NCBI RefSeq assembly: GCF_003568845.1
Contig: NZ_CP030127.1
Coordinates: 589,501 to 653,500 of the forward strand
DNA from: Indioceanicola profundi
Lineage (GTDB): Bacteria; Pseudomonadota; Alphaproteobacteria; Azospirillales; Azospirillaceae
Direction: 5' to 3'
Length of the DNA stretch: 64,000 nucleotides
The position numbers were made by a program, and so were the translations under genes. The first letter of the stretch is position 1; the number at the start of each line of letters is the position of its first letter. This document shows, in pieces, positions 25,344-50,490 of this stretch. A model generated the notes under the pieces. The model did not search any database, had not been told where the DNA came from, and saw nothing but the letters and a program-made list of their open reading frames with translations.

Positions 25344-25345
25344 CC

Positions 25346-26366: not shown

Positions 26367-27354
26367 TGTTTGGTCCCGGCATTTGGTGGAGCGGGTTGAG
26401 GATGAAGCGTTCTGGGTCGGCAATCCACTGTTTGCAGATGAACTCGTAAGGCGTAAGGCCCTTTAGCGTCTTAAGGCGCCGGCCAAAGTTGTAGGCTGCG
26501 ACGAAGTCGGCGAGGTGCTGCCGGAGCTCGTCATGGCTCTCATAGTGGTAGCGCTTGACGGTCGCATCCTTGATGGTGCGGTTCATGCGCTCGACCTGAC
26601 CGTTGGTCCAGGGGTGGCGAGGCTTGGTCAGCCGATGCTCCACGTCGAGATCGGCGCAGGCAGCCTCGAAGGAGTGGCAGCGGAAGGGGATCTTCTCGGC
26701 CCGCATGGCCTTGATGTCCTTGGGCGTCCAACCGTCACCGGTCGGCTCGGTGAAGTGGGTGCCGTTGTCGGTGAGCACGGTGTGGATCTTGTAGGGAACG
26801 GCTGCCGCGAGGTGGCGGAGGAAGTCGCCAGCCACGCGCCGCGTCGCCTTCTCGTGCAGCTCGACAAAGGCGAACTTGGACGTGCGGTCGATGGCCACGA
26901 AGAGGTGGAGCTTGCCCTGTTCGGTCCTGACCTCCGCGATGTCGATGTGGAAGAAGCCGATCGGGTAGCGCTTGAACCTTGAGCGCTGCGGCTTGTCCCC
27001 GTCGGTCTCGGGCAGCCGGCTGATGCCGTGTCGCTGGAGGCAGCGATGCAGGCTCGAACGGGTGAGGTGCGGAATAGTGGCCTGGAGGGCGTAGAGGCAG
27101 TCGTCGAGCGGCAGCAGCGTGTAACGCCGGAAGGCGACGATGATCGCCTCGTCCTCGGCCGTCAGGATGGTGGATCTGGGGGCCGTGGGCCCGGTGCGCT
27201 GATCAGCGACCGAGCTCCTGGCCCTCCACTTCGCAACCGTCTTCGGGTTGATGCCATACCGCTTGGCCAGGGCTCTCAGGCTCTCTTGACTATGCTGTAT
27301 CGCTCGACGGACCGCCGCTGTCGTTGTGGCGCTCCCGTGGTGAACCTGCCCCAT
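26362..27354 (-). CDS. IS481-family DDE transposase
   Basis: This 330-aa integrase-type transposase has an N-terminal helix-turn-helix (SQESLRALAKRYGINPKTVA, then KWRARS) and a DDE catalytic core: first Asp in GFFHIDIAEVR, second in TVLTDNGTHF, Glu in WTNGQVERMNRTIKDATVKR. The frame runs through the terminal repeat, and its TAG stop is supplied by the target duplication, outside the element. The start at 27354 is chosen; an ATG five codons earlier is possible. Confidence 0.94.
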   Translation of the reverse strand: MGQVHHGSATTTAAVRRAIQHSQESLRALAKRYGINPKTVAKWRARSSVADQRTGPTAPRSTILTAEDEAIIVAFRRYTLLPLDDCLYALQATIPHLTRSSLHRCLQRHGISRLPETDGDKPQRSRFKRYPIGFFHIDIAEVRTEQGKLHLFVAIDRTSKFAFVELHEKATRRVAGDFLRHLAAAVPYKIHTVLTDNGTHFTEPTGDGWTPKDIKAMRAEKIPFRCHSFEAACADLDVEHRLTKPRHPWTNGQVERMNRTIKDATVKRYHYESHDELRQHLADFVAAYNFGRRLKTLKGLTPYEFICKQWIADPERFILNPLHQMPGPNI

Positions 27355-27410
27355 AGCGCTTCCATCCACTCACGTGACAAGAATGCACCATCAAACCCCG
27401 GGACCAAACA
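26367..27410 (-). mobile_element. Complete IS481-family insertion sequence
   Basis: This 1044-bp element is bounded by terminal inverted repeats: 26367-26389 against 27388-27410, starting TGTTTGGTCCCGG, 20 of 23 bases matching. A 6-bp duplication of GCTAGA flanks it. It holds a single transposase gene on the minus strand that fills the element. Intact ends, duplication and frame imply recent, possibly active, insertion. Confidence 0.93.
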
Positions 27411-32715: not shown

Positions 32716-34158
32716 ATGATGGCGAAGGGGTTGGAACTAGAACGGCAGGCGCGCCGCCCTCTTTTGAAGGTTCTCCGCAGCCCGCGGAAGACCTTGTTCC
32801 GCATATCTCTGGCGCTTCTGTTCCTGGCGAGCGCGGCTGCCATCCTGCTGATCGTCGAAGGAAGCGTCGCCGAAGAGTCCTCGGGAGAGGCGCAGACCAT
32901 GTCACCCATGGCCTTCTGGGGCATGCGGACGGCCGCCGACCTGCACCCTGGCATGCCGGAGCCCCGGCTTCTCTCCTTTGTCGGAGCGCCGCGGGGCGTC
33001 ACTGTCGACCTGTCCATCGGCACCATCGGGGCCGTCGCCCGGATCATGCCTTTCGGCGACAGCATCACGCAGGGCGTTGTAAACCGCGATCTGCGCGATA
33101 CGGGCGGGTACCGCGCCCCACTCTGGCAGATGTCGTTGCGCGGTGGCGGTCTGGTCGAGTTCGTCGGACCTGAGAAATCAGCGTTGCCCGGCCCGCAGGA
33201 CCCGGACCACGCCGGCTTCGGACGCCGCACGCTGGTCTGGGCCGAGGAGGAGGCGCCAAATCTGTTGGCACGGTATCGGCCAGATGTGGTTCTGCTGATG
33301 TTTGGCACCAACGACAGTAATGAGGCGGACGCCGAGAACATGCTCGCCCGGGCCGGAACGCTGTTCGACCGGATTGCATCGGATTCGCCGGGGACACTTC
33401 TCCTTGTGGCCGATCCTCCGCCAATCCGGCCGGATGCGCAACCGCACGAGCGTGTCGCTGCGATGGATACGTTCCGCGCCTTGTTGCCGGTCATCATCCG
33501 GGAGCGGGCGGAGCAGGGTAGCCGCATTCAGCACGTCTCCATGGCGGCGTTGGGCGTCCAGCACGTGTCCGCCCCACCCGCCGACAACGGGTTGCACCCG
33601 ACCCCGAACGGCTATTGCGCCATGGCTGCGGGCTGGGCCGCTGGTCTGGCTCAGAGCGGACTGTCTACCGGGTACCTGCCTCTGCCCCCGATTGATATGA
33701 AGGGTGTGGCGGACATCACCGGAAGCGCTTTCAATGACCGGCTGGTCGGAACTGCCGGAATGAATCGTCTGCGCGGTGGACGCGGCAACGATGTCCTGAT
33801 CCCCAATGGCGGGGCTGACGAGTTGTGGGGTGGACCGGATGCGGATCTATTCGTATTCGCCACTGCCGATATCGGCACGGGCGTTTCAATCGTGCACGAC
33901 TTCAATGCGGAAGAGGGCGACCGGCTGGACCTCTCGAGCATCAGCGCGGCTTATCCCGAACCGGACATGATCGTCTTCCGCTCGACGGAAGCCGGCACCT
34001 TTCTGGCCGTAGATCCGGACGGGATGATCGGGGAAATGCCTCCCGTTGAGATCGCCTGGTTTCCCGGCGCCTCCATCGGGCCCGATGTCGTTCTGGAACA
34101 AACCGCTGTCGCATGCGATCCGAATCCGGAGACGCAGTCGGCCAGCCTGCCCCACTGA
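32716..34158 (+). CDS. SGNH/GDSL hydrolase with RTX-like C-terminal module
   Basis: This 480-aa protein has an N-terminal hydrophobic anchor (about residues 29-48, FRISLALLFLASAAAILLIV). The SGNH core has block I PFGDSITQG, block III FGTNDSN and block V DNGLHPTPNGY with catalytic Asp/His. Residues about 348-395 resemble hemolysin-type repeats (LRGGRGNDVL; ELWGGPDADLFVF). Likely work is deacetylation or de-esterification of a surface polysaccharide. The RTX-like module pairs it with the GH16 enzyme at 13426-15138, but here with a membrane anchor. The substrate is unknown. Confidence 0.75.
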   Translation: MMAKGLELERQARRPLLKVLRSPRKTLFRISLALLFLASAAAILLIVEGSVAEESSGEAQTMSPMAFWGMRTAADLHPGMPEPRLLSFVGAPRGVTVDLSIGTIGAVARIMPFGDSITQGVVNRDLRDTGGYRAPLWQMSLRGGGLVEFVGPEKSALPGPQDPDHAGFGRRTLVWAEEEAPNLLARYRPDVVLLMFGTNDSNEADAENMLARAGTLFDRIASDSPGTLLLVADPPPIRPDAQPHERVAAMDTFRALLPVIIRERAEQGSRIQHVSMAALGVQHVSAPPADNGLHPTPNGYCAMAAGWAAGLAQSGLSTGYLPLPPIDMKGVADITGSAFNDRLVGTAGMNRLRGGRGNDVLIPNGGADELWGGPDADLFVFATADIGTGVSIVHDFNAEEGDRLDLSSISAAYPEPDMIVFRSTEAGTFLAVDPDGMIGEMPPVEIAWFPGASIGPDVVLEQTAVACDPNPETQSASLPH

Positions 34159-34174
34159 ACCGGACGCTCGGCTT

Positions 34175-34230
34175 TTCATCCGCGCTTAAATTTCCGTTGC
34201 TACGGTCACCCCGAGTTTCCAAATGGATAC
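34175..34230 (+). promoter_or_regulatory. flgE promoter region: TTAA box, GCTACG and GTTTCC dyad
   Basis: TTCA-N7-TTAA (34175-34189) is followed by TTTCCG, GCTACG (34199-34204) and dyad GTTTCC-AAAT-GGATAC (34215-34230). The dyad differs from the fliK one at a single base, and the TTAA-to-dyad distance differs by one base. It lies at the 3' end of the SGNH gene and the gap before flgE. Confidence 0.6.
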
Positions 34231-34271
34231 CGCTGTCCGCGGCGGGAATCCGCGAAGACGGAGCACGGGTG

Positions 34272-35567
34272 ATGAGCATCTTCAGCGCGATGAATTCCGG
34301 GGTCAGCGGGCTGGCGGCGCAGAGTGCCAAGTTCGGCGCCATCTCTGACAACATCTCCAACTCATCAACGGTGGGGTACAAGCGAACGGGCGTGCAGTTC
34401 TCCACGCTGGTGACGACCAGCAGCACGCCCGGCAGTTACTCCGCCGGCGGCGTCATGGCCGATCTGCGCACCGAGGTGTCGCGCCAGGGCATCGTGACCA
34501 GCTCCTTGTCCTCCACGGATATGGCTATTTCCGGCCGCGGCTTCTTCGTCGTGAATACGAAGGCGAACGGGGAGGACAGCAATTTCCAGCTCACCCGCTC
34601 CGGCAGCTTCCGCGTCGACGAGAATGGAAATCTGCGGAACACCGCGGGCCATTACCTGCAGGGCTGGCGGCTGAACGAGCAGGGAGAGGTTGCGGGTGGT
34701 GAGCCCTCGCGCACCAGCTTCGGGACGCTGGAAACGGTTAATCTGTCCAGCATCACCGGGCTTGTGAAGCCGACGAGCGAGATCGACTTTGCTGCCAATC
34801 TCCCCGCCAATCGGACTGGCCCGACCGGAACGGGGGGAAGCTTCTCCACCTCTGTCGACTATTTCACCCGCCTCGGTTTCACAAGCCGGGTCACGCTGGA
34901 GTGGGAGCCGTCAACGGCCAGCGCCAACCAGTGGACGCTGCGGATGCGGGACGTGAACGGGGCGAATATCGGCGAGGTGAATCTGCAGTTCGCCGATGGC
35001 AGCGGCAGCGTTCCGGCCGGCACGCTGGAGACGATCAGCGCTGGCGCTGTTCCGCCGGCGGCCGTCGATGCGGCGGACGGCAGCATGACCATCACCGTGG
35101 ACGGCCAGCCGATCACGGTGAATTTCGGGCGCACGGGCGAGACGGGTGGCCTCACCCAGTGGGGTGACCAGTATGTGCCGACCAAGATCAACAAGGACGG
35201 CGCCGGCTACGCTCCGCTGGAGCGGGTGGAGGTCGGTGACGATGGCGTCATGACCGCCGTCTATCGTAACGGGCTGCGTCAAGCGGTCTACCGCATTCCC
35301 ATGGCCGATGTGACCAATCCGGACGGGCTTCGCCGGATGGACGGCAACGCCTTCCAGATCAGCCGCGAGTCCGGCGACATCTATCTCTGGGATGCCGGTA
35401 CCGGCACGGCCGGAACGGTCAATGGCGGGGCGTTGGAAGCTTCCAACGTCGATATCGCCGAGGAACTGACCAGCATTATTGAGACGCAGCGGGCCTACTC
35501 GTCCAACGCCAAGATCATCCAGACCGCAGACGAGATGCTGGACGAGGTCACGCGGCTGATGCGCTGA
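34272..35567 (+). CDS. flgE: Flagellar hook protein FlgE
   Basis: This 431-aa hook subunit begins MSIFSAMNSGVSGLAAQSAK, followed by SDNISNSSTVGYKRTGVQFS. The C-terminal helix has ASNVDIAEELTSIIETQRAY and ends DEVTRLMR. The start was moved 53 codons in from the longest frame, because the family begins there and GGAG lies 10 bases upstream. It is first of the flgE-flgK-flgL unit, which ends at the strong hairpin at 38186-38238. Confidence 0.97.
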   Translation: MSIFSAMNSGVSGLAAQSAKFGAISDNISNSSTVGYKRTGVQFSTLVTTSSTPGSYSAGGVMADLRTEVSRQGIVTSSLSSTDMAISGRGFFVVNTKANGEDSNFQLTRSGSFRVDENGNLRNTAGHYLQGWRLNEQGEVAGGEPSRTSFGTLETVNLSSITGLVKPTSEIDFAANLPANRTGPTGTGGSFSTSVDYFTRLGFTSRVTLEWEPSTASANQWTLRMRDVNGANIGEVNLQFADGSGSVPAGTLETISAGAVPPAAVDAADGSMTITVDGQPITVNFGRTGETGGLTQWGDQYVPTKINKDGAGYAPLERVEVGDDGVMTAVYRNGLRQAVYRIPMADVTNPDGLRRMDGNAFQISRESGDIYLWDAGTGTAGTVNGGALEASNVDIAEELTSIIETQRAYSSNAKIIQTADEMLDEVTRLMR

Positions 35568-35631: not shown

Positions 35632-37116
35632 ATGACCATTGGTCTCGCCCTGCAGACGGCGCTGACCGGGCTGCGTGCGAATCAGCAGCGCTCGGCGATC
35701 CTGTCGCGCAACATCGCCAACGCCACCACTCCGGGCTACACCCGCAAAGAGGCCGTGCTCGCCTCCCTCACCGTCGGCGGCGAGGGCAGGGGCGTAGAGG
35801 TGCGCGATATCCGCCGCAGTGTCGATACGGGGCTGGCGCGCGAGGTGCGAACCCAGACCAGCACCCAGATGAGCCTAGCGGTCAGGGCGGAGTCGCTGGC
35901 CGCCTATACGCAGGCCGTCGGCCAGCCGGAGGAGGAGCGCAGCCTGTCGTCCGCCCTTGCAGGGCTGGAGCAAGCCTTCCTGCGATTGGAGGAGTTGCCC
36001 GAGAGCCCGACCCAGCAGCGGGCCGTCGTTGACGCAGCCACGGTTCTCGTCCAGCGGCTGAATGCCGCCGACGCCAAGGTGGCAGAGGTACGGCAGCAGG
36101 CAGATGCCGACATCGGCGATGCGGTGGCGGAGGTGAACCAAGCCCTGAAGCAGCTGGAGGCCCTGAACCGTCAGGTGGCAATCCGCACTGGCACCGGGCA
36201 GGATGCCACCGAACTGCAGGACCAACGCGACCGTCTGCTGGACACGATCTCGGAGCATATCGGGATCAACTACTTCACCCGAGATGCGGGCGAGGTGGTT
36301 GTGATGACCACCGGGGGGGCCACGCTGCTGGATGGGCGGGCGCGGGAACTGGAATTCTATCACACGGCCGTAATCGGGTCGGAGGCCACATATCCCGGCG
36401 GTCTTTCCGGCTTGAGAATCGACGGGATAGACATGGCGCCGGGCAGCGGATACCCGAATTCCGTGTCCGGCGGCCGCATCGAGGGGCTGTTCGCGGTACG
36501 CGACCAGCTCATGCCGCAGGTTCAGCGGCAGATCGACGAGGTTGCGAGCGTGCTTGCCGACCGGTTCCAGGCCGCCGATTCCAGCATCGCTGGCAGTGGA
36601 CTCGGCGATACGGGCCTGTTCACCGACAATGGCAGCCGCCACTACCGAACGCCTCCCTTCGATCCTGCCTCTCCCGGGCCGGCTGGTCTGGCCGGGCGAA
36701 TTCGGGTCAACGATATGGTCCGGATCGACGCTGGCGGCGATCCTGCCCTTGTCCGCACCGGACTGCACGGTGGCGGCGGGGATGTCGGCAATACCGCGCA
36801 GATCAAGGCTTTCCTGGGCGTCTTTTCGGAGACGGTCGGGTTCAGCACCGGCGCCGGCCTGATGCCGTCAGGGACGATCAAGACCTTCACCTCCGCCGCA
36901 ATCAGCCAGCAGCACATGATGCGGGCGAGTGCCGAGACGGATGCCAAGGCGCAAGGCCTGCTCGTCGAGACGGTGCAGGCCAGCCGGGAAGCCCGCGAGG
37001 GCGTGAACATCGACGAGGAGCTGCAGGAGTTGATCGTCCTCGAGCGGGGCTATGCCGCGTCCGCCCAGGTGATCCAGGCTGCGGCCCGCATGCTCGACAA
37101 GCTGTTGGAGATCTGA
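35632..37116 (+). CDS. flgK: Flagellar hook-associated protein 1 FlgK
   Basis: This 494-aa hook-filament junction protein begins MTIGLALQTALTGLRANQQR and has the rod/hook motif SRNIANATTPGYTRKEAVLA. The middle is the variable domain. The C-terminal helix is VNIDEELQELIVLERGYAAS, then AARMLDKLLEI. It sits 64 bases after flgE and 4 before flgL. Confidence 0.95.
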   Translation: MTIGLALQTALTGLRANQQRSAILSRNIANATTPGYTRKEAVLASLTVGGEGRGVEVRDIRRSVDTGLAREVRTQTSTQMSLAVRAESLAAYTQAVGQPEEERSLSSALAGLEQAFLRLEELPESPTQQRAVVDAATVLVQRLNAADAKVAEVRQQADADIGDAVAEVNQALKQLEALNRQVAIRTGTGQDATELQDQRDRLLDTISEHIGINYFTRDAGEVVVMTTGGATLLDGRARELEFYHTAVIGSEATYPGGLSGLRIDGIDMAPGSGYPNSVSGGRIEGLFAVRDQLMPQVQRQIDEVASVLADRFQAADSSIAGSGLGDTGLFTDNGSRHYRTPPFDPASPGPAGLAGRIRVNDMVRIDAGGDPALVRTGLHGGGGDVGNTAQIKAFLGVFSETVGFSTGAGLMPSGTIKTFTSAAISQQHMMRASAETDAKAQGLLVETVQASREAREGVNIDEELQELIVLERGYAASAQVIQAAARMLDKLLEI

Positions 37117-37120: not shown

Positions 37121-38179
37121 ATGACTGTGCCTACCGTCTCTACCCTGTCGCTGGCGCGGCAGACCCGGAACGGCATCCGTCTGATGCAAGTGGAAATGTC
37201 CATGCGTCAGCAGGAGCTGTCCACCGGCCGCAAGATTGATGTCGCCGGCGCCATCGGCAGCCGGACCGCCTCTCTGGTCGATCTGCGCAATGCGCGCAAC
37301 GAGATCGTCGAATACCAGACCTCCATCCAGACCCAGGCGTCCCGCCTCACCACGATGCAGAAAGCGGTCGAGGAGGTGCGGGCGGCAGTCACCAAGGTCC
37401 GCGACCTGGCGCTGGGCGTGTCCGGCTCCGGCAGCGGACCTGCGGCCGGGGCTATCGACGAGGCGGCTCGCGATGCGCTGCAAGTCGTCCAGTCCATGCT
37501 GAATACCAGCCAGTCAGGACGTTTCCTGTTCGCTGGCACGCGCTTCGACCAGAAGCCGGTCCAGCCGCAGGACGAGGTGGGGCCGAGCGGGCTGTCGCCG
37601 GCCCAGGCCGTCGCACAGACGATCAGCGGCTTTCCCGCTCTCACGGACGCCGCATCGGTCGACGCCATGATCGACGGGCCGGGCGGTCTGTCGGCCATGT
37701 TCAACGATGTCGATCCCACCGATCCGGCCAGCTTCTCCAACACTTTCTTCCATGGCTCCACCACCTATGTCGTGGGCCGTGCAGGAAATGAAATGCCCGT
37801 GACCTACCGCGTGACCGCCGGTGATCAGGCGATCCGCGACCTGATGCAGGGGCTGTACATGCTTGCGGCCGTGCCGGATGATTCCGTGCCGACGGGCGCT
37901 TATAAGCGGGTTGCGGAGCGAGGCTGGCAGCAACTCACCGGGGCCCTGGACCAGCTGGTCGAAATGCAGGGCGTGCTGGGGCTGGAGGAGGAGGCGGTCG
38001 ACCGCGCCGAACGCCAGTATGAGGTGCAGAAGACCCTCGTCTCCACCCAGATCGTCAGGCTGGAGGAGGCGGACCCTCAGGAAACCGCACTGCGACTGAA
38101 TACGCTTCAGACCCAGCTCGAGGCGAGCTTCGCCGTGACCAGCCGGATAAGCACCTTGTCGCTGGTCAATTTCCTCTGA
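37121..38179 (+). CDS. flgL: Flagellar hook-associated protein 3 FlgL
   Basis: This 352-aa second junction protein is flagellin-like at both ends: RQTRNGIRLMQVEMSMRQQE with LSTGRKIDVAGAIGSRTASL at the start, and LQTQLEASFAVTSRISTLSL ending VNFL. QSGRFLFAGTRFDQKPVQ is the usual FlgL/FlaN hallmark. It is last in the hook unit; the terminator begins 7 bases after the stop. Confidence 0.95.
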   Translation: MTVPTVSTLSLARQTRNGIRLMQVEMSMRQQELSTGRKIDVAGAIGSRTASLVDLRNARNEIVEYQTSIQTQASRLTTMQKAVEEVRAAVTKVRDLALGVSGSGSGPAAGAIDEAARDALQVVQSMLNTSQSGRFLFAGTRFDQKPVQPQDEVGPSGLSPAQAVAQTISGFPALTDAASVDAMIDGPGGLSAMFNDVDPTDPASFSNTFFHGSTTYVVGRAGNEMPVTYRVTAGDQAIRDLMQGLYMLAAVPDDSVPTGAYKRVAERGWQQLTGALDQLVEMQGVLGLEEEAVDRAERQYEVQKTLVSTQIVRLEEADPQETALRLNTLQTQLEASFAVTSRISTLSLVNFL

Positions 38180-38390: not shown

Positions 38391-39140
38391 CTATGCCGTC
38401 GCAGCCATCTCCATGGCCATGGGACGCGGCCGGGGCGCCGGCAGGTCGTCATCCGCGGCCTCGGGCGCCTCGAACTTGTAACCGCGGCCATAGACGGTCT
38501 CGATATAGCGATCGCCGTTGGTGGCTTCGGCGATCTTCTTCCGCAGTTTGCAGATGTAGACGTCGATCACTTTGTCCAGGGGATCGGAACCGGAGAGGCT
38601 GTACACGGCCTCGTAGATCTTTTCCTTGGAGATTACCCGGCCGACATTCAGGGCCAGCACGCTGAAGATCGCATGCTCCCGATGGCTGAGCCGCAGACGG
38701 CGTCCATCCACCGCCGGGTCGCGCCCGTCGAGGTAGACGGTGAGGCGGCCAACCTGCAACTCTGGAGAGCTGTGGCCGTGGGAGCGCCGACGGACAGCGT
38801 GCAGCCGCGCCTCGATCTCCTGGGCATTCACCGGCTTCACCAGCACATCGTCCGCACCAGCGCGCAGGTGGGTGATTGTCGTAGCGACGCAACGCCGCTC
38901 AAGCAAGCTGGTCAGGATCGTCTGTCCCACCGTCCGGCGCAGCCGGCCGATCAGGTTATCCGGGTTGGTGACGTCTCCGACAAGGATTGCGTCGTAATCG
39001 TCGAAGCCGTGCGCTCCGTCCTGGAGCAGGCCCTCCGCATCCAATTCCCGGGCGACCTCGCAACGCAGGTTTGCCCGCTCGATCGTGCGGGCGACGGCTC
39101 CGGCGACAGTCTGATCGTTCTCAATCAGCAGAACGCGCAT
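38391..39140 (-). CDS. CtrA/FtcR(Rem)-type OmpR-family regulator
   Basis: This 249-aa protein has an N-terminal receiver and a winged-helix DNA-binding domain. The C-terminal half closely follows CtrA: RRRSHGHSSPELQVGRLTVY, VIDVYICKLRKKIAEATNGD, then IETVYGRGYKFE. The receiver is atypical. The acidic pocket reads LIENDQ (E7, N8, D9). The acceptor strand YDAILVGDVTNPD has an extra residue, leaving D56 as the only candidate. K102 is kept. The start at 39140 has GGAG six bases upstream; upstream ATGs add 4 or 16 codons. CtrA, and FtcR/Rem in rhizobia and Brucella, activate flagellar genes. Its place between flgL and flgI, amid TTAA-N7 boxes, suggests it controls this cluster. It is likely a paralog, not the cell-cycle CtrA itself. 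Confidence 0.82.
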   Translation of the reverse strand: MRVLLIENDQTVAGAVARTIERANLRCEVARELDAEGLLQDGAHGFDDYDAILVGDVTNPDNLIGRLRRTVGQTILTSLLERRCVATTITHLRAGADDVLVKPVNAQEIEARLHAVRRRSHGHSSPELQVGRLTVYLDGRDPAVDGRRLRLSHREHAIFSVLALNVGRVISKEKIYEAVYSLSGSDPLDKVIDVYICKLRKKIAEATNGDRYIETVYGRGYKFEAPEAADDDLPAPRPRPMAMEMAATA

Positions 39141-39391: not shown

Positions 39392-40519
39392 ATGGCGAAC
39401 CGTTTCCTTGTCCGGCTGGCTGCGACAGGCCTTGCTGTCCTGCTGCCGGCCATGATCGCATTTCCTTCCGGCGCACAGACCCGCATCAAGGATCTGGTGG
39501 AAGTGGAAGGCGTGCGAGCGAACCAACTTCTCGGCTACGGTCTGGTTGTGGGACTGAAGGGGAGCGGCGACCGCCTGCAGAACTCGCCCTTCACGCAGCA
39601 GAGCCTCGAAGGGATGCTGGAGCGGTTGGGGGTCAATATCACCGGCCTCAATGTCCGGACGCGGAATATCGCGGCCGTCATGGTCACGGCGGAGCTGCCG
39701 CCCTTTCCTCGCCAGGGAAGCCGCCTGGACGTTTCCATCTCCACCATGGGCGACGCCACAAGCCTGCAAGGCGGCAATCTCGTTGCGACGCCGCTGATGG
39801 GAGCGGACGGCAGGATCTATGCAGTGGCGCAGGGGCCTGTTGCCATAAGCGGCTTCGATGTGCAGGGACAGGCGGCCAGCGTAACCAAGGGCGTGCCCAC
39901 CTCCGGCCGTATCGCCAACGGCGCCATCGTGGAGCGGGAGGTTGATTTCGCGCTCGACGATCTGCGCAGCGTGCGGCTGAGCCTGCGGTCGCCGGACTTC
40001 TCAACGGCAACCCGGATCGCCCAGGCGGTGAATACCGACCTTGGCGGATCGGTCGCGCGCGCCACAGATCCGACCACCGTGGAGATGACGGTGCCAGCCG
40101 CGTTCCAGGGAAATGTCGCCGCACTTGTTTCCAGGATAGAAACGCTTCAGGTCAGGCCCGACGCGCCGGCCAGGGTGGTGGTGGATGAGAAGTCCGGCAC
40201 CATTGTGATCGGCGAGAATGTGCGCATCAGCACCGTGGCCGTGGCGCAGGGCAATCTGACGGTACGGGTGGAGGAGACTCCGCAGGTGTCGCAACCCTCG
40301 CCCTTCGCCGAGCAAGGACAGACCGTCGTGGTGCCGCGCACCCAGATTACGGTCGACGAGGAGAGTGGGAACCGTCTGAACATCATCCAGGGCGGCGTAT
40401 CGCTTCAGGAACTGGTGAACGGGCTGAACCGTCTTGGCGCCGGCCCGCGCGACATCATCGCGATTCTTCAGGCCATCAAGGCCGCCGGCGCGCTGCACGC
40501 CGATCTTGAAGTCATGTGA
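39392..40519 (+). CDS. flgI: Flagellar P-ring protein FlgI
   Basis: This 375-aa periplasmic P-ring subunit has a Sec signal peptide ending near FPSGA-QT (about residue 29). The mature start TRIKDLVEVEGVRANQLLGY is diagnostic, as are GLVVGLKGSGD, NVRTRNIAAVMVTAELPPF and, near the end, LNIIQGGVSLQELVNGLNRL with GAGPRDIIAILQAIKAAGAL. It opens the flgI-flgJ-flgN unit. Confidence 0.97.
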   Translation: MANRFLVRLAATGLAVLLPAMIAFPSGAQTRIKDLVEVEGVRANQLLGYGLVVGLKGSGDRLQNSPFTQQSLEGMLERLGVNITGLNVRTRNIAAVMVTAELPPFPRQGSRLDVSISTMGDATSLQGGNLVATPLMGADGRIYAVAQGPVAISGFDVQGQAASVTKGVPTSGRIANGAIVEREVDFALDDLRSVRLSLRSPDFSTATRIAQAVNTDLGGSVARATDPTTVEMTVPAAFQGNVAALVSRIETLQVRPDAPARVVVDEKSGTIVIGENVRISTVAVAQGNLTVRVEETPQVSQPSPFAEQGQTVVVPRTQITVDEESGNRLNIIQGGVSLQELVNGLNRLGAGPRDIIAILQAIKAAGALHADLEVM

Positions 40520-41362: not shown

Positions 41363-41400
41363 GTTTCCAAAAGGAAACAAATTTTACCCCGGTTTAAACC
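41363..41400 (+). promoter_or_regulatory. Flagellin promoter region: GTTTCC dyad and TTAA box
   Basis: A perfect dyad GTTTCC-AAAA-GGAAAC (41363-41378) is followed three bases later by TTTTACCCCGGTTTAAACC (41382-41400), which contains TTTA-N7-TTAA. About 117 bases separate the box from the flagellin ATG. That leader can fold (GGGGC at 41430-41434 with GCCCC at 41446-41450), which would suit FlbT-type mRNA control. Confidence 0.6.
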
Positions 41401-41517: not shown

Positions 41518-42369
41518 ATGACCACGTCCATTCTCACCAACGTCGGCGCAATGGTGGCGCTGCAGACCCTGAACCGCACCACCAAGGATCTGGCGGTGGT
41601 CCAGGATCGCATCTCCACCGGCATGAAGGTGGCCACGGCCAAGGACAATTCGTCCTACTGGTCCATCGCCACCACCATGAAGTCCGACGTGTCCGCGCTC
41701 AAGGCGCTGAACGAGAACATCAACATCAACGCGGCCACCGTGCAGACGGCCCGTGTCGGTGCTGAGAACATCCAGAAGCTGATGAGCCAGGTGAAGGACC
41801 AGCTCTCGCTCGCCACCTCCGCCTCGGTCGATCACACCAAGATCGGCGAAGAGCTGGACAGCTTGGCTGCGCAGATCCAGAACACGATGGATGCCGCCAG
41901 CTACAATGGCGAGAACCTGCTGAACAACACCGACGTCCGTACGCTGACCGTCTCCATCAACCGCAGCGGTGCTGGCATCACGGCGGTGGAGGACGAGGTT
42001 GCCGGCCAGGACATGACGGCTGTGCAGACCTTCGTGGCCGGCCTGTCCGCCGCCATCACCGGCGGCGCCGACGGTTCCGCCAACGCGGCGTCCGCGCAGA
42101 CCCAGCTCCTGGCGCTCGAAGCGCATATGGAGACCGTCATCACCGCGGCGGCCGAGTTCGGTAACGTCGGCAAGCGGCTTGAGCTGCAGGCCGACTTCAC
42201 CAGCAAGCTGGTGGACAGCCTCAACCAGGGCATCGGTACCCTGGTGGACGCGAACCTGAACGAGGAGTCGGCACGTCTTCAGGCCCTGCAGGTCCAGCAG
42301 CAGCTGGGCATCCAGGCCCTGTCGATCGCCAACGGCGCTCCGCAGAACATCCTGGCGCTGTTCCGCTGA
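41518..42369 (+). CDS. Flagellin
   Basis: This 283-aa filament protein is short, as is usual in alphaproteobacteria. Conserved ends: ALQTLNRTTKDLAVVQDRIS and TGMKVATAKDNSSYWSIATT at the N-terminus; QALQVQQQLGIQALSIANGA and PQNILALFR at the C-terminus. The central variable domain is small. The start at 41518 begins MTTSILTNVGAM. It is transcribed from its own promoter, with a strong terminator after it, and is followed by flaF and flbT. It is the only flagellin in the window. Confidence 0.97.
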   Translation: MTTSILTNVGAMVALQTLNRTTKDLAVVQDRISTGMKVATAKDNSSYWSIATTMKSDVSALKALNENININAATVQTARVGAENIQKLMSQVKDQLSLATSASVDHTKIGEELDSLAAQIQNTMDAASYNGENLLNNTDVRTLTVSINRSGAGITAVEDEVAGQDMTAVQTFVAGLSAAITGGADGSANAASAQTQLLALEAHMETVITAAAEFGNVGKRLELQADFTSKLVDSLNQGIGTLVDANLNEESARLQALQVQQQLGIQALSIANGAPQNILALFR

Positions 42370-42446: not shown

Positions 42447-42494
42447 GTATCCGAATGGAAACGTTTTATCGCCGTTTAATCCGCCCTTGCTAGC
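42447..42494 (+). promoter_or_regulatory. flaF promoter region: dyad, TTAA box, TTGCTAGC
   Basis: GTATCC-GAAT-GGAAAC (42447-42462) lies one base before TTTTATCGCCGTTTAATCC (42464-42482), which holds TTTA-N7-TTAA. TTGCTAGC follows 7 bases past the TTAA. The order dyad-then-box matches flagellin; the TTGCTA element matches flgE. Confidence 0.58.
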
Positions 42495-42532: not shown

Positions 42533-42889
42533 ATGAGCGTCGCCGCCTACCGCCAGTCCATGCGCGACACGATCAGTCCGCGCGAGCTGGAAAGCCGAGT
42601 CTTCGCGCAGGTCACGGCAGAGCTGGAGGGATGCGTCGCCGGCACCGACCGCTTCGCGGTGATCCGCGCGGTGGATCGGAACCGCCGCCTCTGGGGCGCT
42701 CTCGTCGCCGATCTGGCCGAAGGCGAGAACCTGTTGCCGGACCAGCTCAAGGCCGGGCTGGTGTCTCTGGGGCTGTGGGTGAACCGCTATAGCGGCCAGG
42801 TGCTTGCCGACGGCTCCCCACTGGCGCCGCTGATCGATGTGAACCGAACGGTGATGAAGGGCTTGGCTGCGCCTCTGGCGGCCGGCTGA
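42533..42889 (+). CDS. flaF: Flagellar biosynthesis regulator FlaF
   Basis: This 118-aa alphaproteobacterial flagellin regulator is needed for flagellin production and acts with FlbT. SPRELESRVFAQVTAELEGC and NRRLWGALVADLAEGENLLP match the family. Seventeen bases separate it from flbT, and both lie directly behind the flagellin gene in the usual order. Confidence 0.93.
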   Translation: MSVAAYRQSMRDTISPRELESRVFAQVTAELEGCVAGTDRFAVIRAVDRNRRLWGALVADLAEGENLLPDQLKAGLVSLGLWVNRYSGQVLADGSPLAPLIDVNRTVMKGLAAPLAAG

Positions 42890-42906
42890 GGAGAACGGAG
42901 CGTGCC

Positions 42907-43353
42907 ATGGGGCTGAAGCTGAAGTTGAAGCCGTACGAGAAATTCGTCGTCAATGGCGTGGTGATCGAGAACGGCCGCCACCGCAACACAGTGACGCTGG
43001 CCAACCACGCCCAGGTGATGACCGGCCGCAGCATCCTTCAGCCGGAAGAGGCGACAACGCCCGTCAAGCGGGCCTATTACGCCATTCAGGCCATGCTGAT
43101 CGACCCGGCCAACATGACCGGCCATCAGCAGGTCTATGAGCCGCTCATGGCCCAACTCGCCTCCGCCATCCGTGATTCCGAGATGCGATGCCATCTGGCG
43201 GAAGCGCAGGGATTTGTCAGGGACGGGGACCATTACAAGGCGCTGGCCGCTCTGCGGCCGGTCATCGCCTACGAGGCGATGCTGCTGTCCGATGCAGATC
43301 AGCAGGACAGGGATACGGCCAAACCGCCGGCAGAAGCGTCGGCGCGTGCGTAG
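42907..43353 (+). CDS. flbT: Flagellin mRNA regulator FlbT
   Basis: This 148-aa protein binds the flagellin mRNA leader in Caulobacter and promotes its decay until the hook is built. MGLKLKLKPYEKFVVNGVVI, PVKRAYYAIQAMLIDP and HYKALAALRPVIAYE are family hallmarks. It is co-transcribed with flaF. The long foldable flagellin leader is a plausible target. Confidence 0.95.
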   Translation: MGLKLKLKPYEKFVVNGVVIENGRHRNTVTLANHAQVMTGRSILQPEEATTPVKRAYYAIQAMLIDPANMTGHQQVYEPLMAQLASAIRDSEMRCHLAEAQGFVRDGDHYKALAALRPVIAYEAMLLSDADQQDRDTAKPPAEASARA

Positions 43354-43752: not shown

Positions 43753-44582
43753 TCAGCGGCATATCGGGATATGGCGGTGGGATCGTCACGGGCGGCGGCG
43801 GTTCCTCCCTGGTCCAATTGCGCCTGTTGCAGCGCACGACGGACCGGCAGATGCAGATGCTGGCGGAGCAGCCGCAGGTCAAACGCGATGTGGCCTATTT
43901 CCGCGCCGAAATCGGGAATGTCAAAAGCGCCGAGGACCTCGTGTCCGATAGTCGGCTTCTGCGGTTCGTCGCCACCGCCTTCGGCATGGAGGATCAGGCC
44001 TACGCCAAGGCGTTGCTGAAGAAGGTGATGGAGAGCGATCTGGATGATCCCCGTTCCTTCGCCAACCGGATGTCCGATCCGCGCTTCAAGGAGTTGGCTG
44101 CCGCCTTCAATTTTCCGAAGTACGGCGGTATCAAGGCCGGGCTTCCAGCCTTCCAACAGCAGCTCGTCGACCGCTACATGACGCAGCGGTTCGAGGAGCA
44201 GGCAGGGCAGTCGAACGAAGCCCTGCGGCTAGGGCTGTATTTCCAGCGCAAGGCTGGCCAGATCGAGAACTGGTACAACGTGCTGGCCGATCCCGCCCTG
44301 TCGCAGGTGATGCGGGCGGCGCTAAACCTGCCGGAGGAGATGAGCAAGACCGATGTCGACCGGCAGGTGGACATGTTCAAGGACAAGCTCGACATCAAGA
44401 AGCTTCAGGACCCGGCGGAGGTCGGCAAACTGATCGAGCGGTTCATGGTCATGTCGGATGTGCGGACAGGCGGGCCCGCGGGACCTCAAAGCCCGATTCT
44501 GCAGCTTCTGAATGCGGGTAGCGGTCGGGTGACGCTCGATCCCTCAACCATCCTGGCGGCAAGCCGGCTACGCCGGATCTGA
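43749..44582 (+). CDS. DUF1217-family flagellar protein
   Basis: This 277-aa protein is largely helical. VKRDVAYFRAEIGNVKSAED, LLRFVATAFGMEDQAYAKAL and LDDPRSFANRMSDPRFKELA match the DUF1217 family found in alphaproteobacterial flagellar clusters, whose role is unproven. It is translationally coupled to the FlaG-like gene. Its last 15 bases overlap the end of the convergent kinase gene. Confidence 0.85.
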   Translation: MISGISGYGGGIVTGGGGSSLVQLRLLQRTTDRQMQMLAEQPQVKRDVAYFRAEIGNVKSAEDLVSDSRLLRFVATAFGMEDQAYAKALLKKVMESDLDDPRSFANRMSDPRFKELAAAFNFPKYGGIKAGLPAFQQQLVDRYMTQRFEEQAGQSNEALRLGLYFQRKAGQIENWYNVLADPALSQVMRAALNLPEEMSKTDVDRQVDMFKDKLDIKKLQDPAEVGKLIERFMVMSDVRTGGPAGPQSPILQLLNAGSGRVTLDPSTILAASRLRRI

Positions 44583-46364
44583 CTGGGTTTCCATCGGCCC
44601 CGCGTCCCTTCTGGGGCCTGCGGCGGCCCGTTCCAGGGCCGTCACCAGCGCATCCAGCGTGTAGGGCTTGGACAGCACGGTGAACTCGGTGCCTCCAGCG
44701 ATCTCCTCGCTGTAGCCGGTCATCAGCACGATGGGAAGCTCAGGCCGCCGCCGCCGGGCATCCCGCGCCAGATCCAGGCCGGTTGCCCGCCCGGGCATGA
44801 TCACATCCGACAGCAGCAGGTCGGCCGGAAAGCCTGAAGCAATCATCTGCATCGCCTCGTCCGCAGTCCCGGCGCGCGCGATGCGATAGCCCAGATCCTC
44901 CAGCATCGTGCCCACCAGCGAGCTGACGATGGGATCATCCTCGACCAGCAGGATTCGGCCCTGAGCGCGCCCCAGCTTCCGCTCCTCCACCGGCTGCGGC
45001 ACGTCAGGCTTCTTGTGGGAGCGCGGCAGGTACAGGATGACCGCAGTGCCCTGTCCCGGCATGGTTTCGATCCGCGCTGCACCGCCCGATTGCTGCACGA
45101 AGCCGTAGACCTGGCTCAAGCCCAGGCCGGACCCTTTACCGACCGATTTGGTAGTGAAGAACGGATCGAAGGCGCGGGCCTGCACTTCTGGCGTCATGCC
45201 GGTGCCATCGTCACGCACGGCGATCCGCACGAATTCGCCCGACAGGGCGGGTTCTTCCGGGTCGTCGGATGGCAGCGCGATGTTCCTGGCCTCGATCCGC
45301 AGCAATCCCGCCTTCGGCATCGCATCGCGGGCATTGACGCTGAGATTCAGGATGGCGAGTTCGAATTGCGTCGGGTCCACCTCCACCGTCCAGAGGTCAG
45401 ACGCCAGATCGGGCTCCAGCCGGATATCGGCCCGCAGAGCGCGGGCCAGCAGCTCGGACATTCCCAGCAGTTGGTCCCGCACATCGACCGGCTGCGGCCG
45501 TAGGGCCTGCCGCCGGGCGAAGACCAGGAGCTGCTGCGTCAGTTTTGCGCCCCGCTCGACGGCCTGACGACCGGCGTCCAGGATTTTATGGACCTCCTGG
45601 TTATCCACCCTGCGGCGCACCAGCGACAGACATCCCGACAGGCTCTGCAGCAGGTTGTTGAAGTCATGCGCGACGCCGCCGGTAAGCTGGCCCAGCGCCT
45701 CCATCTTCTGGGTCTGCCGCAACGCCTGCTCCGCCTTTTCCCGCTCCTCGATCTGGAGTTGGAGATTGCGGTTGGCGGCGGCGAGATCCCTGGCCTGGGA
45801 GGCCAGCGTGGCGTTGGCGCGGTTCATGGTGGCCTGCGCGGCCCCCAGCACGACGACCAGCAGCGCCGCCATGACGGCCAGCACCACCACGGCGCCGTAC
45901 CGGACCAGCCGGCGGAAGGCCGGATCGATGGTGCTGCGCAGAAGAACGGCGCCAACCTCCTTGCCGTTCTGGATGACTGGTACGACCACCTTCAGATCGT
46001 TGCCGTTCAGGATCGGTCCGCGCACGCTGCCCGGCTCATCGGGGAGCAGCTCGCCGGACCGGGCGAAGCCGGCGAGCAGCCTGCCATCGGCTCCGTAGAC
46101 GCCGGCCACGCGCAGATCGGGATTGGCGGCCAGGGGATTTACATAGTCCTGCGCGGCAACCTCATCCTCGAATAAAAGCGCGGCCACGACGCTGGCGGCC
46201 AGGATCTGGGCCTGGGTCCCGATTTCCCGGGCCTTCTGGTCCTGGTAGAGACGCTCACCCTGCACCGCGAGCAGGAAGCCGGCCAGGAGCAGGAAAAGCG
46301 CGCTGGCCAGGGCAACAGATGGCAGCAGGCGCCAGCGTCTCGGCGTTCCGCCCATGCTGTCCAT
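44568..46364 (-). CDS. Membrane hybrid histidine kinase (CHASE8-like sensor)
   Basis: This 598-aa kinase has two membrane helices (about 15-35 and 158-180) bracketing a periplasmic domain with AAALLFEDEVAAQDYVNPLA-type residues, as in CHASE8 sensors. It continues with a short coil, HisKA (GQLTGGVAHDFNNLLQSLSG), an ATPase domain (DDGTGMTPEVQ; GSGLGLSQVYGFVQQSGG) and a C-terminal receiver (LLVEDDPIVS; acceptor in LLLSDVIMPG). ATG at 46364 has AGAGGG nearby. It is the last of a TonB receptor-YfiR-kinase unit. No DNA-binding partner is in the unit. Confidence 0.88.
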   Translation of the reverse strand: MDSMGGTPRRWRLLPSVALASALFLLLAGFLLAVQGERLYQDQKAREIGTQAQILAASVVAALLFEDEVAAQDYVNPLAANPDLRVAGVYGADGRLLAGFARSGELLPDEPGSVRGPILNGNDLKVVVPVIQNGKEVGAVLLRSTIDPAFRRLVRYGAVVVLAVMAALLVVVLGAAQATMNRANATLASQARDLAAANRNLQLQIEEREKAEQALRQTQKMEALGQLTGGVAHDFNNLLQSLSGCLSLVRRRVDNQEVHKILDAGRQAVERGAKLTQQLLVFARRQALRPQPVDVRDQLLGMSELLARALRADIRLEPDLASDLWTVEVDPTQFELAILNLSVNARDAMPKAGLLRIEARNIALPSDDPEEPALSGEFVRIAVRDDGTGMTPEVQARAFDPFFTTKSVGKGSGLGLSQVYGFVQQSGGAARIETMPGQGTAVILYLPRSHKKPDVPQPVEERKLGRAQGRILLVEDDPIVSSLVGTMLEDLGYRIARAGTADEAMQMIASGFPADLLLSDVIMPGRATGLDLARDARRRRPELPIVLMTGYSEEIAGGTEFTVLSKPYTLDALVTALERAAAGPRRDAGPMETQSDPA

Positions 46365-46372
46365 GCGCCCTC

Positions 46373-46927
46373 TCAACCCCGTTTCGTGACGGTCAGCGCC
46401 AAGCTCAGCAGCTTGGAGCTGATCGTCAGCCCGTTGCGGGCCGCGGTCCCGCTGTCGATATGGAAGCGGACCCGGTTGTCGCGGATTACGAAATGAACAA
46501 CACCCCGCGCGTCACCGGCGTTGGCCGCATCTGTCACTGTCAGAACGGGCTTGCCGGCGAGTTGGCGCAGCATATCGTGGATCGCATCCTCCCTTTCCGT
46601 CGAAAGATACAGGATGTGGCAATCGGACGCCTCATCCGGGGGAGCCATGCGGCGGATGGTGATGGGTCGCTGTCCAACGGTCTGGGTCTCCGCAATCCGG
46701 TCCAGATGGGCCCCGAATGGATCGGGACCCATGACGCAGACGGCAACCGGATCGTCCGGACCCGGAAAGGATTCCTCCGGCCAAGTGACGAACTCTCCGA
46801 ATTTGGTCAGGAAGGCCGCCTTCACCGGATACTCCAGCGACTCTTCTCTCGTTGCCGCTCCTGCGAAAAGAGGCAACAATCCCATTATCATCAGCAGAAA
46901 CGGTGCGCAGATCCGGCGCACCGTCAA
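46373..46927 (-). CDS. YfiR-family periplasmic protein
   Basis: This 184-aa protein has a Sec signal peptide (hydrophobic about residues 8-24). The DUF4154/YfiR domain shows YPVKAAFLTKFGEFVTWPEE, LDRIAETQTVGQRPITIRRM, CHILYLST and VHFVIRDNRVRFHID. YfiR in Pseudomonas restrains the diguanylate cyclase YfiN; here the neighbouring CHASE8-like kinase may be the partner instead. It overlaps the TonB receptor stop (ATGA). Confidence 0.88.
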   Translation of the reverse strand: MTVRRICAPFLLMIMGLLPLFAGAATREESLEYPVKAAFLTKFGEFVTWPEESFPGPDDPVAVCVMGPDPFGAHLDRIAETQTVGQRPITIRRMAPPDEASDCHILYLSTEREDAIHDMLRQLAGKPVLTVTDAANAGDARGVVHFVIRDNRVRFHIDSGTAARNGLTISSKLLSLALTVTKRG

Positions 46928-48882
46928 AGGCTCCAGCGGGCGCGGAGCTGAACGGTCCGGCCGAAGACCCGCCGGGCCGGATTCTCCGTCATCTCCGTAT
47001 GCCGCTCATTCAGAAGGTTGTCTCCCGCCAACGACAGCTCCAGCGAATCCAGCAGGCGCCAGCCTAGGCGGGCATCGACCAAGGTATAGCCGGGCAGGGC
47101 AGGGGCTGAAAGATCATCTACCGTCCGCACCGCCAGATCCAGTTCCAAGCCGCCGGCCAGGTTCATGCGGGAGCGGACCTGTCCATGCCAGTCCGGATCA
47201 TTTCCTACGGCGGCGAAGTTCGCCCTGTCGTTGCGCCCGCCCTTGAGGCGGAAATCCTTACGCAGGATAGTGGCGCCCGCGCTGAGCCGCCACCAGTCGG
47301 TCAGAAGATACTCGCCCCATACCTCCACGCCCCAGCTTTCCCCTCTGATGCCGTTCGCCAGGGCCAGCGGCAGCGGGGCGGTAGTGACAGGCTCCGTCGT
47401 GCGGATATCGTCATAGACATTGAAGAAGGTCGACACGGATAGGCTGGTGCGATCAAGGGGCCGGCCGCGGTAGCCGGCTTCGAAGGCGATCAGCTTTTCC
47501 GAACCGAAGCTGCCCCGCACCAGTACGCCCGGCGCAACAAGTTCGCGGTCGACACGCGACGGCGTCCGGACCGCACGCGACACCGCCGTCCACAGCAGCG
47601 CCCCTTCCGGCGCCTGCCATGCCAGACGGGCGTTCGGCAGATACTCCCAGCCGGTGAAGCTGCTGCGCTCCAGCTTCAGCCCAAGTGTCAGCGCCAGTTC
47701 CGGCGTCAGCGCCATCTCATCCTGGACGAAGACGTCGCTCAGGTTCAGCCAGCGCTTGCGGGGGTCCAGCACGAAAGCGTTCAGGGTGTTGCGGAAGTCA
47801 TCCCTGATGATGCGATGCCCGCCGCCCCAGACGATCCGATGTCCTTCCCACGGGGCGAAATTGTGCTGAAACTCCGTCGCATAGGTGTCTACCCGCTCCA
47901 CCACGCCGAAATAGTCGCGACGGGAACGGTCCACATAGCCTTGCAGCTCAAGCGCCGCGCCTCCGTTCAGATCACGACGCCATCTTGCCAGAACGTTCTC
48001 CCCCTCCAGTCCCCAGTGGAATGTGGGAAGGCCGGCCACCTCCACTTCCGTCTCGAAGTCGGAAACATCCCCCTGGACCGTGAAGCTGTCGGCGCCGCCG
48101 TCCAGATCGACGCGGAAGCCCCCCTGCAAGCCGTTCCAGTCGTCGCCCAGGTCGATGCCCGCCAGCGGATTCGGGTGTTCCCGCTCGAATCCCTGGACAT
48201 AGAACCGGTAGGCGGCGCGGTCGCCAAGGGTTCCGCCATAGCGGGCGGAGGCTCGGCGATCCTTGGTGCCGAGCGTGATGTTGGCCAGGGCGCCCTGGGT
48301 ATCCAGGGCACGCTTACTGACCACATTGATGACGCCGTTGACGGCATTGCTGCCCCAGAGCGTTCCGCCGGGGCCGCTGACCACCTCGATCCGGTCCAGA
48401 TCGGGGAGGAAGACGTCCTGCGCATCCCAGTAAACGGCGGAATGAAGCAGAGAATAGATGCTGCGCCCGTCGATCAGAACCTGCAGCTTGTTGGCGGTGT
48501 CATAGCCGTTGAAGCCGCGAGCGGAGATGCTGTAGCCCAGTGTCTCAAGCCGGGCGACGTGCAGGTTGGGAGCGAGCCGTAGCGCCTCTGCCAAGTTCAC
48601 GGCGCCTGAGCGCCGGATATCGTGTTGCCGGATGAGGAAGGCTGCTGCCGGTGCATTCTCGACGGATTGGGGCCGGCGGGAAACAGACGTGATTTCCACC
48701 TTGACCAGCTCGTCGATGGACATAAGCGCAAGATCGGCTGGATCAACCGACGCATGTACATTGGACACCCAGACGGTTACTGAAACAGCGACCAGAATAG
48801 AAAGCCGGCTTGTTTTCCAGCGTCGCTTATCGGCAGCAGAGGAACCGGCGGGGATGGGGCTGGGCTGGATGGACATCATCAA
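46924..48882 (-). CDS. TonB-dependent outer-membrane receptor
   Basis: This 652-aa beta-barrel receptor has a signal segment at about residues 28-44. The plug domain (about 55-185) includes SIDELVKVEITSVSRRPQSV, LQVLIDGRSIY and RIEVVSGPGGTLWGSNAVNG. The barrel ends in ...VQLRARWSL, with an aromatic-rich final strand. It sits in a unit with YfiR and a kinase, a recurring arrangement in proteobacteria that suggests sensing rather than bulk uptake. The ligand is unknown. Confidence 0.9.
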   Translation of the reverse strand: MMMSIQPSPIPAGSSAADKRRWKTSRLSILVAVSVTVWVSNVHASVDPADLALMSIDELVKVEITSVSRRPQSVENAPAAAFLIRQHDIRRSGAVNLAEALRLAPNLHVARLETLGYSISARGFNGYDTANKLQVLIDGRSIYSLLHSAVYWDAQDVFLPDLDRIEVVSGPGGTLWGSNAVNGVINVVSKRALDTQGALANITLGTKDRRASARYGGTLGDRAAYRFYVQGFEREHPNPLAGIDLGDDWNGLQGGFRVDLDGGADSFTVQGDVSDFETEVEVAGLPTFHWGLEGENVLARWRRDLNGGAALELQGYVDRSRRDYFGVVERVDTYATEFQHNFAPWEGHRIVWGGGHRIIRDDFRNTLNAFVLDPRKRWLNLSDVFVQDEMALTPELALTLGLKLERSSFTGWEYLPNARLAWQAPEGALLWTAVSRAVRTPSRVDRELVAPGVLVRGSFGSEKLIAFEAGYRGRPLDRTSLSVSTFFNVYDDIRTTEPVTTAPLPLALANGIRGESWGVEVWGEYLLTDWWRLSAGATILRKDFRLKGGRNDRANFAAVGNDPDWHGQVRSRMNLAGGLELDLAVRTVDDLSAPALPGYTLVDARLGWRLLDSLELSLAGDNLLNERHTEMTENPARRVFGRTVQLRARWSL

Positions 48883-49031: not shown

Positions 49032-50426
49032 TCAACTCGACCCAGGTCTGGGCTGGCCCTTCCGGCCGGACTTGGCCGGTTCTTCCTGTGGCGGAGCTGC
49101 CGGTTCGGGTTCCGAAAGAATATCTGCTAAGGTTGCAAAGCTGTTAGCGGCCGGCGTTGCCTCACTCTTGGGCTGGGCAAGAAATGCGGTGAAGGCCGGC
49201 ATTGCCCGGATCGCGCGGTCCAGTTCCGCATCGCTTCCGGCCCGGTAGGCTCCCAGGCGGATCATCTCCTCCATGGACCCATAGCGGGAGAGGAGGGTGC
49301 GGGCGGCAGATACCGTGGCATTCTCCTCAGCACTGTGGCAGCCGGGCAGTGCGCGGCTGACGCTTTTCAGCACGTCCACCGCAGGGTACCGGCCGCGTTC
49401 CGCGATCTGGCGGGTCAGGACCAGATGGCCGTCCAGAATACCGCGCACAGCGTCCGCCACGGGTTCATCATGGTCGCCGCCTTCCACCAGAACGGTGAAG
49501 AGGCCGGTGATATCGCCTGTGCCCTCGATCCCTGGGCCGGCCCGTTCCAGCAGCCTCGGCAATTCGGCGAATACTGTGGGCGGATAGCCCTTGGTGGTTG
49601 GCGGTTCCCCGGCCGCTAGCCCGATCTCCCGCTGTGCCATGGCGAAGCGGGTGATGCTGTCCATCAGGCACAGAACATCCCGACCCTGGTCCCGGAACCA
49701 CTCCGCGACTGACATCGTCAGGTAGGCCGCCTGTCGGCGGGTCAGAGCGGGCTCATCCCCCGTCGCCACAATCACCACCGACCGGGCAAGGCCTTCCGGT
49801 CCCAGATCGTCCTGAATGAATTCCTGCACTTCGCGTCCGCGCTCCCCGATCAGGCCGATCACATTGACATCGGCGGCGCTGGACCGCGCCAGCATGGAGA
49901 GAAGCGTGGACTTGCCGACGCCCGACCCGGCGAATACGCCAAGCCGCTGCCCGCGACACAGCGGCACGAAGCTGTCCAGCACGCGAATCCCGGTATCCAG
50001 CCGCGTCCCCATCCGGCGGCGCTGGAAGGCATGCGGCGGTCCGGCGCGCAGCGATCGGTTTCCGTCCCCGCGGACCAACGGCCCCTTGCCATCGACCGGG
50101 CGTCCGAAAGCGTCCACGACGCGGCCCAACCAGCCCTCCCCCGGTCGGACCACGGTTTCCGTCGCGGCTTCGACCCTGCATCCCAGCCCCAGTCCGTCGA
50201 CAGGGCCGAAGGGCAACAGCACGGCCCGGTCTCCCCGGAAGCCGACGACTTCGCACGGGGTCGACCGTCCGTTGCGGGCGATCGCCCGGCAGGCATCGCC
50301 CACCGAAAGTCGGCGTTCCAGCCCCTCCACCTCCACCGTCATGCCGGTGCAGGCGGCGACTTGGCCGTGGAAGCTGAAACGGGGCAACTGCTCAATGTCG
50401 GCCAGCAGGCCGGCGAGGATGGACAT
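49032..50426 (-). CDS. fliI: Flagellum-specific ATPase FliI
   Basis: This 464-aa type III export ATPase has Walker A GSGVGKST at residues 167-174, LCLMDSITRFAMAQREIGLA around the Walker B region, and GDITGLFTVLVEGGDHDEPV plus DGHLVLTRQIAERGRYPAVD typical of FliI. The last 45 residues form a Glu/Pro-rich tail (SEPEPAAPPQEEP) not usual in the family. It is monocistronic here. fliH and fliJ are not adjacent. It is divergent from flgB. Confidence 0.96.
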   Translation of the reverse strand: MSILAGLLADIEQLPRFSFHGQVAACTGMTVEVEGLERRLSVGDACRAIARNGRSTPCEVVGFRGDRAVLLPFGPVDGLGLGCRVEAATETVVRPGEGWLGRVVDAFGRPVDGKGPLVRGDGNRSLRAGPPHAFQRRRMGTRLDTGIRVLDSFVPLCRGQRLGVFAGSGVGKSTLLSMLARSSAADVNVIGLIGERGREVQEFIQDDLGPEGLARSVVIVATGDEPALTRRQAAYLTMSVAEWFRDQGRDVLCLMDSITRFAMAQREIGLAAGEPPTTKGYPPTVFAELPRLLERAGPGIEGTGDITGLFTVLVEGGDHDEPVADAVRGILDGHLVLTRQIAERGRYPAVDVLKSVSRALPGCHSAEENATVSAARTLLSRYGSMEEMIRLGAYRAGSDAELDRAIRAMPAFTAFLAQPKSEATPAANSFATLADILSEPEPAAPPQEEPAKSGRKGQPRPGSS

Positions 50427-50475
50427 GGGACAGGGTCCTCGGACGCGGTTTCCATCCCATCCTGTCCGGCAGCGT

Positions 50476-50490
50476 TTAAAGGGGCTTAAA
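50476..50490 (-). promoter_or_regulatory. CtrA-like box toward fliI
   Basis: On the minus strand TTTA-AGCCCCT-TTAAACG, 50 bases before the fliI ATG. It has the TTTA-N7-TTAA form seen at flagellin and flaF. Confidence 0.45.

Follow-up and report, generated by a model that had tools for sequence, protein, structure and literature searches.

The gene studied here occupies positions 38391-39140 on the minus strand of the analysed stretch of Indioceanicola profundi DNA (the window; 64,000 nucleotides). It encodes a 249-amino-acid protein from an ATG that matches the start in its relatives; an in-frame TTG upstream would yield 265 amino acids. A degenerate receiver (residues 1-120) is followed by a winged-helix DNA-binding domain (residues 128-228). 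We refer to the family of this protein as Q. The first-pass annotation, made from the sequence by a model, had placed an abnormal CtrA/FtcR-like regulator inside a flagellar cluster, and the neighbours, flgL on one side and flgI on the other, agree with this. The features are as follows.

15769-15785: palindromic box TTTAAAGCCGCTTTCAT, about 95 nt upstream of fliK
15879-17786, plus strand: fliK and flgD
18990-21999, minus strand: flgF-flgG-flgA-flgH operon
22048-22064: palindromic box TTTGAACCGGCTTTAAT, between flgF and the ORF at 22109
22078-22095: second box GTTAAACCCGGGTTCAAA, between flgF and the ORF at 22109
24383-24399: weak box with 3 mismatches, about 61 nt upstream of motA
24459-26365, plus strand: motA and motB
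34174-34190: box TTTCATCCGCGCTTAAA, about 77 nt upstream of flgE
34266-35567, plus strand: flgE (hook), head of the flgE-flgK-flgL operon (Pfam)
35632-37116, plus strand: flgK (Pfam)
37121-38179, plus strand: flgL (flagellin N/C domains and position)
38391-39140, minus strand: Q-family orphan OmpR-type regulator, divergent from flgI
38715-38729, minus strand: codons 138-142 of the regulator (DGRDP), a motif common to FtcR-type proteins
38970-38984, minus strand: codons 53-57 of the regulator (LVGDV), with Gly55 in the phospho-acceptor column and Asp56 next to it
39392-40519, plus strand: flgI (P-ring) of the second-system type (Pfam, FlgI tree)
41382-41398: box TTTTACCCCGGTTTAAA, about 120 nt upstream of the flagellin gene
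41518-42369, plus strand: flagellin
42464-42480: box TTTTATCGCCGTTTAAT, about 54 nt upstream of flaF
42533-43353, plus strand: flaF and flbT
49032-50426, minus strand: fliI (flagellar export ATPase)
50474-50491: box GTTTAAAGGGGCTTAAAG, about 49 nt upstream of fliI

Several other genes lie within or next to these. A chemotaxis operon (994-10573, minus strand; CheW, CheR, an MCP, a CheA hybrid, CheB and an HWE kinase hybrid) adjoins the second flagellar set and recalls the Che2 operon of Rhodospirillum centenum, which controls lateral flagella. A 758-amino-acid ORF with no Pfam match (22109-24385, plus strand) has boxes directly upstream and is conserved in several Q clusters. An IS-type integrase gene (26365-27369, minus strand) adjoins motB, and just before flgE lies a gene (32716-34158, plus strand) whose product, read by eye, is predicted to be secreted and combines a lipase-like N-terminal part with RTX-like glycine-rich repeats. 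A CHASE8 hybrid histidine kinase, a YfiR-like protein and a TonB receptor (44571-48882, minus strand) are encoded between the flagellar genes and fliI; a bacteriophytochrome kinase, a receiver protein and an HWE kinase hybrid (52762-57709, minus strand) are encoded beside the cluster.

The DNA-binding domain of the regulator was normal (PF00486, 72.6 bits), in keeping with its earlier description as CtrA-like. The receiver scored below the Pfam cut-off (PF00072, 20.9 versus 30.2 bits); the receiver of the genome's own CtrA scored 100.7 bits. As had been noticed, LIENDQ replaces the usual acidic pair: Glu7 is kept and the second acidic residue, the Mg-binding Asp, is Asn8. In a global alignment of 44 Q family members, 24 FtcR-type proteins and 15 CtrA proteins, the phospho-acceptor is lost throughout the Q family, with Gly in 41 of the 44 members and Ser in 3. 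The same column is Asp (Asp51 of CtrA) in 15/15 CtrA proteins, and Gly in 23 and Ser in 1 of the FtcR-type proteins. The column of the Mg-binding Asp has mostly Pro, Gln or Asn in Q and Asp in none of the 44 members, whereas CtrA keeps both acidic residues; Glu7 of Q is mostly Asp in FtcR. An extra residue had been proposed in the acceptor strand. The alignment ruled this out, having no insertion there; just past beta-3, Q proteins are shorter.

The structure prediction that had been proposed as a check gave a normal receiver fold and winged helix (AlphaFold2, pLDDT 88). PDB matches were OmpR-type regulators, placing the window protein in the OmpR/PhoB fold. They included HP1043 (HsrA) of Helicobacter pylori, a phosphorylation-independent orphan that resembles Q in its OmpR-type fold and degenerate receiver but is distant, essential and not flagellum-specific. 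A pseudogene was ruled out by the conservation of domains across orders.

Indioceanicola profundi has a canonical CtrA, encoded at C1:977202-977879, which scored 419 bits with NF045991 (cut-off 350). The window protein scored 156.3 bits with the same model and fell outside the CtrA clade in the tree described below. The window gene is thus not the only ctrA of the genome, and the search for a separate canonical copy, suggested in the first-pass annotation, bore out its idea of a paralogue distinct from cell-cycle CtrA. In an alphaproteobacterial MAG, a degenerate CtrA-like protein is encoded directly upstream of a canonical ctrA (L123, 8975-9841).

Close relatives of the window protein (53-73% identity) were found in 6 of 22 genomes of the same family, each of which also had a separate CtrA-type match with about 40% identity to the window protein. 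Members of the Q family come from Azospirillaceae, Parvularculaceae and Rhodobacteraceae and from Tepidicaulis; among the named genomes scanned, those with the family include Azospirillum, Niveispirillum, Oleisolibacter, Tepidicaulis, Parvularcula, Thioclava, Cognatishimia and Sulfitobacter. Public plasmid records label its members 'response regulator transcription factor' or 'hypothetical protein', and no paper naming the family was found in the open-licence literature. In Rhodospirillum centenum, the published descriptions of RC1_0209, which lies in the fla clusters, are 'CheY-like receiver' and 'CtrA homolog' (PMC2890560, PMC4340629); neither paper gives its function. Judging from its position rather than its sequence, RC1_0209 is probably the Q ortholog (the Q gene at 195 kb in genome G002).

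In the main tree, the 44 Q sequences grouped with support of 93/92 and CtrA with 97/95. Q paired with the FtcR-type proteins (99/98) while lying outside the FtcR clade itself. The FtcR-type sequences in the tree and the alignment are real ones, found with an FtcR probe that served only to locate them. On sequence evidence, FtcR, Rem, LafR and ActR, orphan flagellar regulators of Rhizobiales, are likely the sister group of Q. They share with Q the acceptor-column Gly and the GRDP motif, whose Asp141 and Pro142 were found in 44/44 Q members, in 21 and 23 of 24 FtcR-type proteins and in none of 15 CtrA proteins. The window gene also has the characteristic site beside flgE-flgK-flgL or flgI: the order flgJ-flgI-Q-flgL-flgK-flgE is common to Azospirillaceae, Parvularculaceae and Rhodobacteraceae, and FtcR genes likewise adjoin flgE-flgK-flgL. 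Common descent can be argued because the acceptor Gly and GRDP are shared, these being few residues that are themselves within the tree data. The kinship with FtcR/Rem, raised earlier by analogy, is now backed by derived residues common to both and by the pairing that the tree prefers.

Alternatively, the resemblance might be convergent, two CtrA-derived regulators having lost the acceptor independently and Q not belonging to the FtcR line, which would be compatible with the function proposed below. Long branches are in play in the tree, and support for Q dropped to 65/90 when the longest rows were removed. The recognition helix of the window protein is VIDVYICKLRKKI, not the FtcR-type ESHxSKLRKKL; in the alignment, the helix of Q was about 40% identical to that of FtcR and on average 66% identical to that of CtrA. 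No peak of spacing-7 boxes (see below) was found in FtcR clusters. The phylogeny asked for in the first-pass annotation placed Q outside CtrA, but AU tests left two alternatives to the FtcR pairing unrejected (p 0.089 and 0.069). Set against this are the pairing in the full-data tree, the common site beside flgE-flgK-flgL, and an Asp-to-Gly change and a GRDP motif that are both absent from CtrA. We consider convergence rather unlikely and prefer a sister relationship of Q and FtcR.

The regulator belongs to a second flagellar set, as the earlier idea of a paralogue dedicated to one flagellar system implied. One flgI gene of Indioceanicola profundi lies in the window, a second on C1. Among 82 Azospirillaceae genomes, two flgI genes (two split genes being counted as one) were present in 40 of 43 Q-positive and 5 of 39 Q-negative genomes (Fisher P=3e-14; the genomes are related, so P overstates their independence). 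The five Q-negative exceptions are draft genomes. Incomplete Q copies were seen at contig ends in related Azospirillum records, and such breakage may explain some of the exceptions. In the FlgI tree, all primary copies formed one clade (100/100) and the Q-linked copies fell outside it, in several groups. Three Q-positive genomes had a single flgI. One of these is a MAG (G006), in which the Q gene (L053) has no flagellar neighbours or boxes. An A. brasilense record has two Q copies, one of them on plasmid p4 (L240, 20001-20780), where no flagellar gene is annotated closer than 20 kb. In other orders, some Q clusters may be the sole flagellar set. Q clusters may be related to the published fla2 type, judging from Sulfitobacter plasmids.

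The window contains nine TTAA-N7-TTAA sites with at most one mismatch, versus 0.83 expected; none lies in the intergenic region between the Q gene and flgI. The CtrA-like boxes that had been reported are present as to their core, but they take a palindromic form seldom met in the rest of the genome. Counts of TTAA-N7-TTAA peaked at spacing 7 in the window and in Q-linked loci of five groups; those at spacings 6 and 8 were also raised, partly from extended AT ends. Azospirillaceae sites extend to the palindrome TTTAAA-N5-TTTAAA, and Rhodobacteraceae sites consist of the TTAA core only. Because this 17-bp pattern was chosen after the sites had been viewed, the enrichment in the window itself is partly circular, and a genome-wide search and other genomes give more independent support. 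With at most two mismatches, the palindrome occurred six times in the 5.37 Mb genome, four times in the window (binomial P 3e-7). Of the other two sites, one is on C4 and one (C2:733670) precedes by about 90 nt a small ORF that adjoins fliG and fliP, so that flagellar loci on replicon C2 hold five of the six matches. The raw genome-wide count was no higher than that of a reversed control; the location is the striking part.

Other genomes gave similar results. The best 17-bp matches of G003, G017 and G021 fell in their Q clusters, while those of the Q-negative genome G011, for which the list is complete, were scattered. In six dual-flagella genomes, 54 boxes were counted at spacing 7 in Q clusters versus 16, nearly flat, in primary clusters, the stretches compared being about 40 kb each in four genomes, 38 versus 40 kb in G021 and 64 versus 80 kb in Indioceanicola profundi. 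The two clusters were alike in G022 (5 versus 6 boxes). In the named loci, a box was found within 300 nt upstream of 61/62 flagellin, 39/41 flgE, 50/60 Q, 27/38 fliI and 24/40 flgI genes. Control spacings were far lower in the same regions, and operon-internal genes were almost never preceded by a box.

These boxes could instead be targets of canonical CtrA, with Q competing with it or modulating it (for example, as a repressor or heterodimer partner) and so gating CtrA at the second flagellar set. The box core is that of CtrA, the recognition helices are similar as noted above, and the title of a work cited in PMC4340629 (reference 24) states that a CtrA homologue affects swarming in R. centenum. 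However, no such enrichment is seen in the primary clusters of these genomes despite the presence of CtrA, the palindrome is concentrated in Q-linked clusters and scattered where Q is missing (G011), and boxes precede Q itself in most loci. We regard this reading as unlikely.

Our favoured explanation, in which we have good though not full confidence, is that Q, which derives from the CtrA line and most likely has FtcR/Rem/LafR as its sister group, is a phosphorylation-independent orphan activator that serves only a second flagellum, probably a lateral one, and would bind the palindromic boxes. With its CtrA-like recognition helix, it would bind TTTAAA-N5-TTTAAA, which contains TTAA-N7-TTAA, independently of CtrA. 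Its predicted targets are the heads of fliK, flgF/ORF22109, motA, flgE, flagellin, flaF and fliI; in most relatives, it would also bind its own promoter, shared with flgI. Because the acceptor Asp is missing, its activity would be set by amount, a protein partner or a ligand rather than by the CckA-ChpT relay. By analogy with LafR, the second flagellar set would most likely be activated when the level of Q rises, and this flagellum would probably be made conditionally. A phosphorylation switch at Asp56, directly after Gly55 and in a protein that keeps Lys102, is very improbable, since position 56 is Asp in only 6/44 Q members, Lys102 is found in 21/44, the Mg-binding Asp is missing in all 44, and LafR is reported not to depend on phosphorylation (PMC8429497).

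Among the closest parallels, by description, is LafR of Bradyrhizobium diazoefficiens, an orphan Rem-type regulator in a cell with two flagella, which controls lateral and not polar flagella and for which phosphorylation is unnecessary (PMC8429497). Unlike the sampled Rhizobiales FtcR-type proteins, Q has a CtrA-like recognition helix and a box. In Agrobacterium, Rem is inhibited by MirA (PMC12632262). In R. centenum, lateral genes are inducible by surface, and FlbD mutations disrupt polar but not lateral flagella (PMC2890560).

How two flagella are kept separate in one cell is an open question in Rhodobacterales (PMC12363192), and the same question concerns Azospirillum and R. centenum. To it the Q family brings a gene, a predicted box and target operons. 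A. brasilense has been reviewed as lacking rem (PMC8429497), and Q, even in two copies, is a candidate regulator for this species. We tentatively entertain a broader scenario, somewhat short of even odds in our estimation, in which Q survives as an intermediate step from CtrA to FtcR/Rem: a CtrA duplicate would have lost phosphorylation first while keeping the CtrA DNA code, and a mobile second flagellar system would have taken it over and gained from it a box of its own. Whole flagella could in this way pass from one alphaproteobacterial order to another together with their regulator. The Q family hints at how the line of a cell-cycle regulator may have yielded flagellum-specific, phosphorylation-free regulators.
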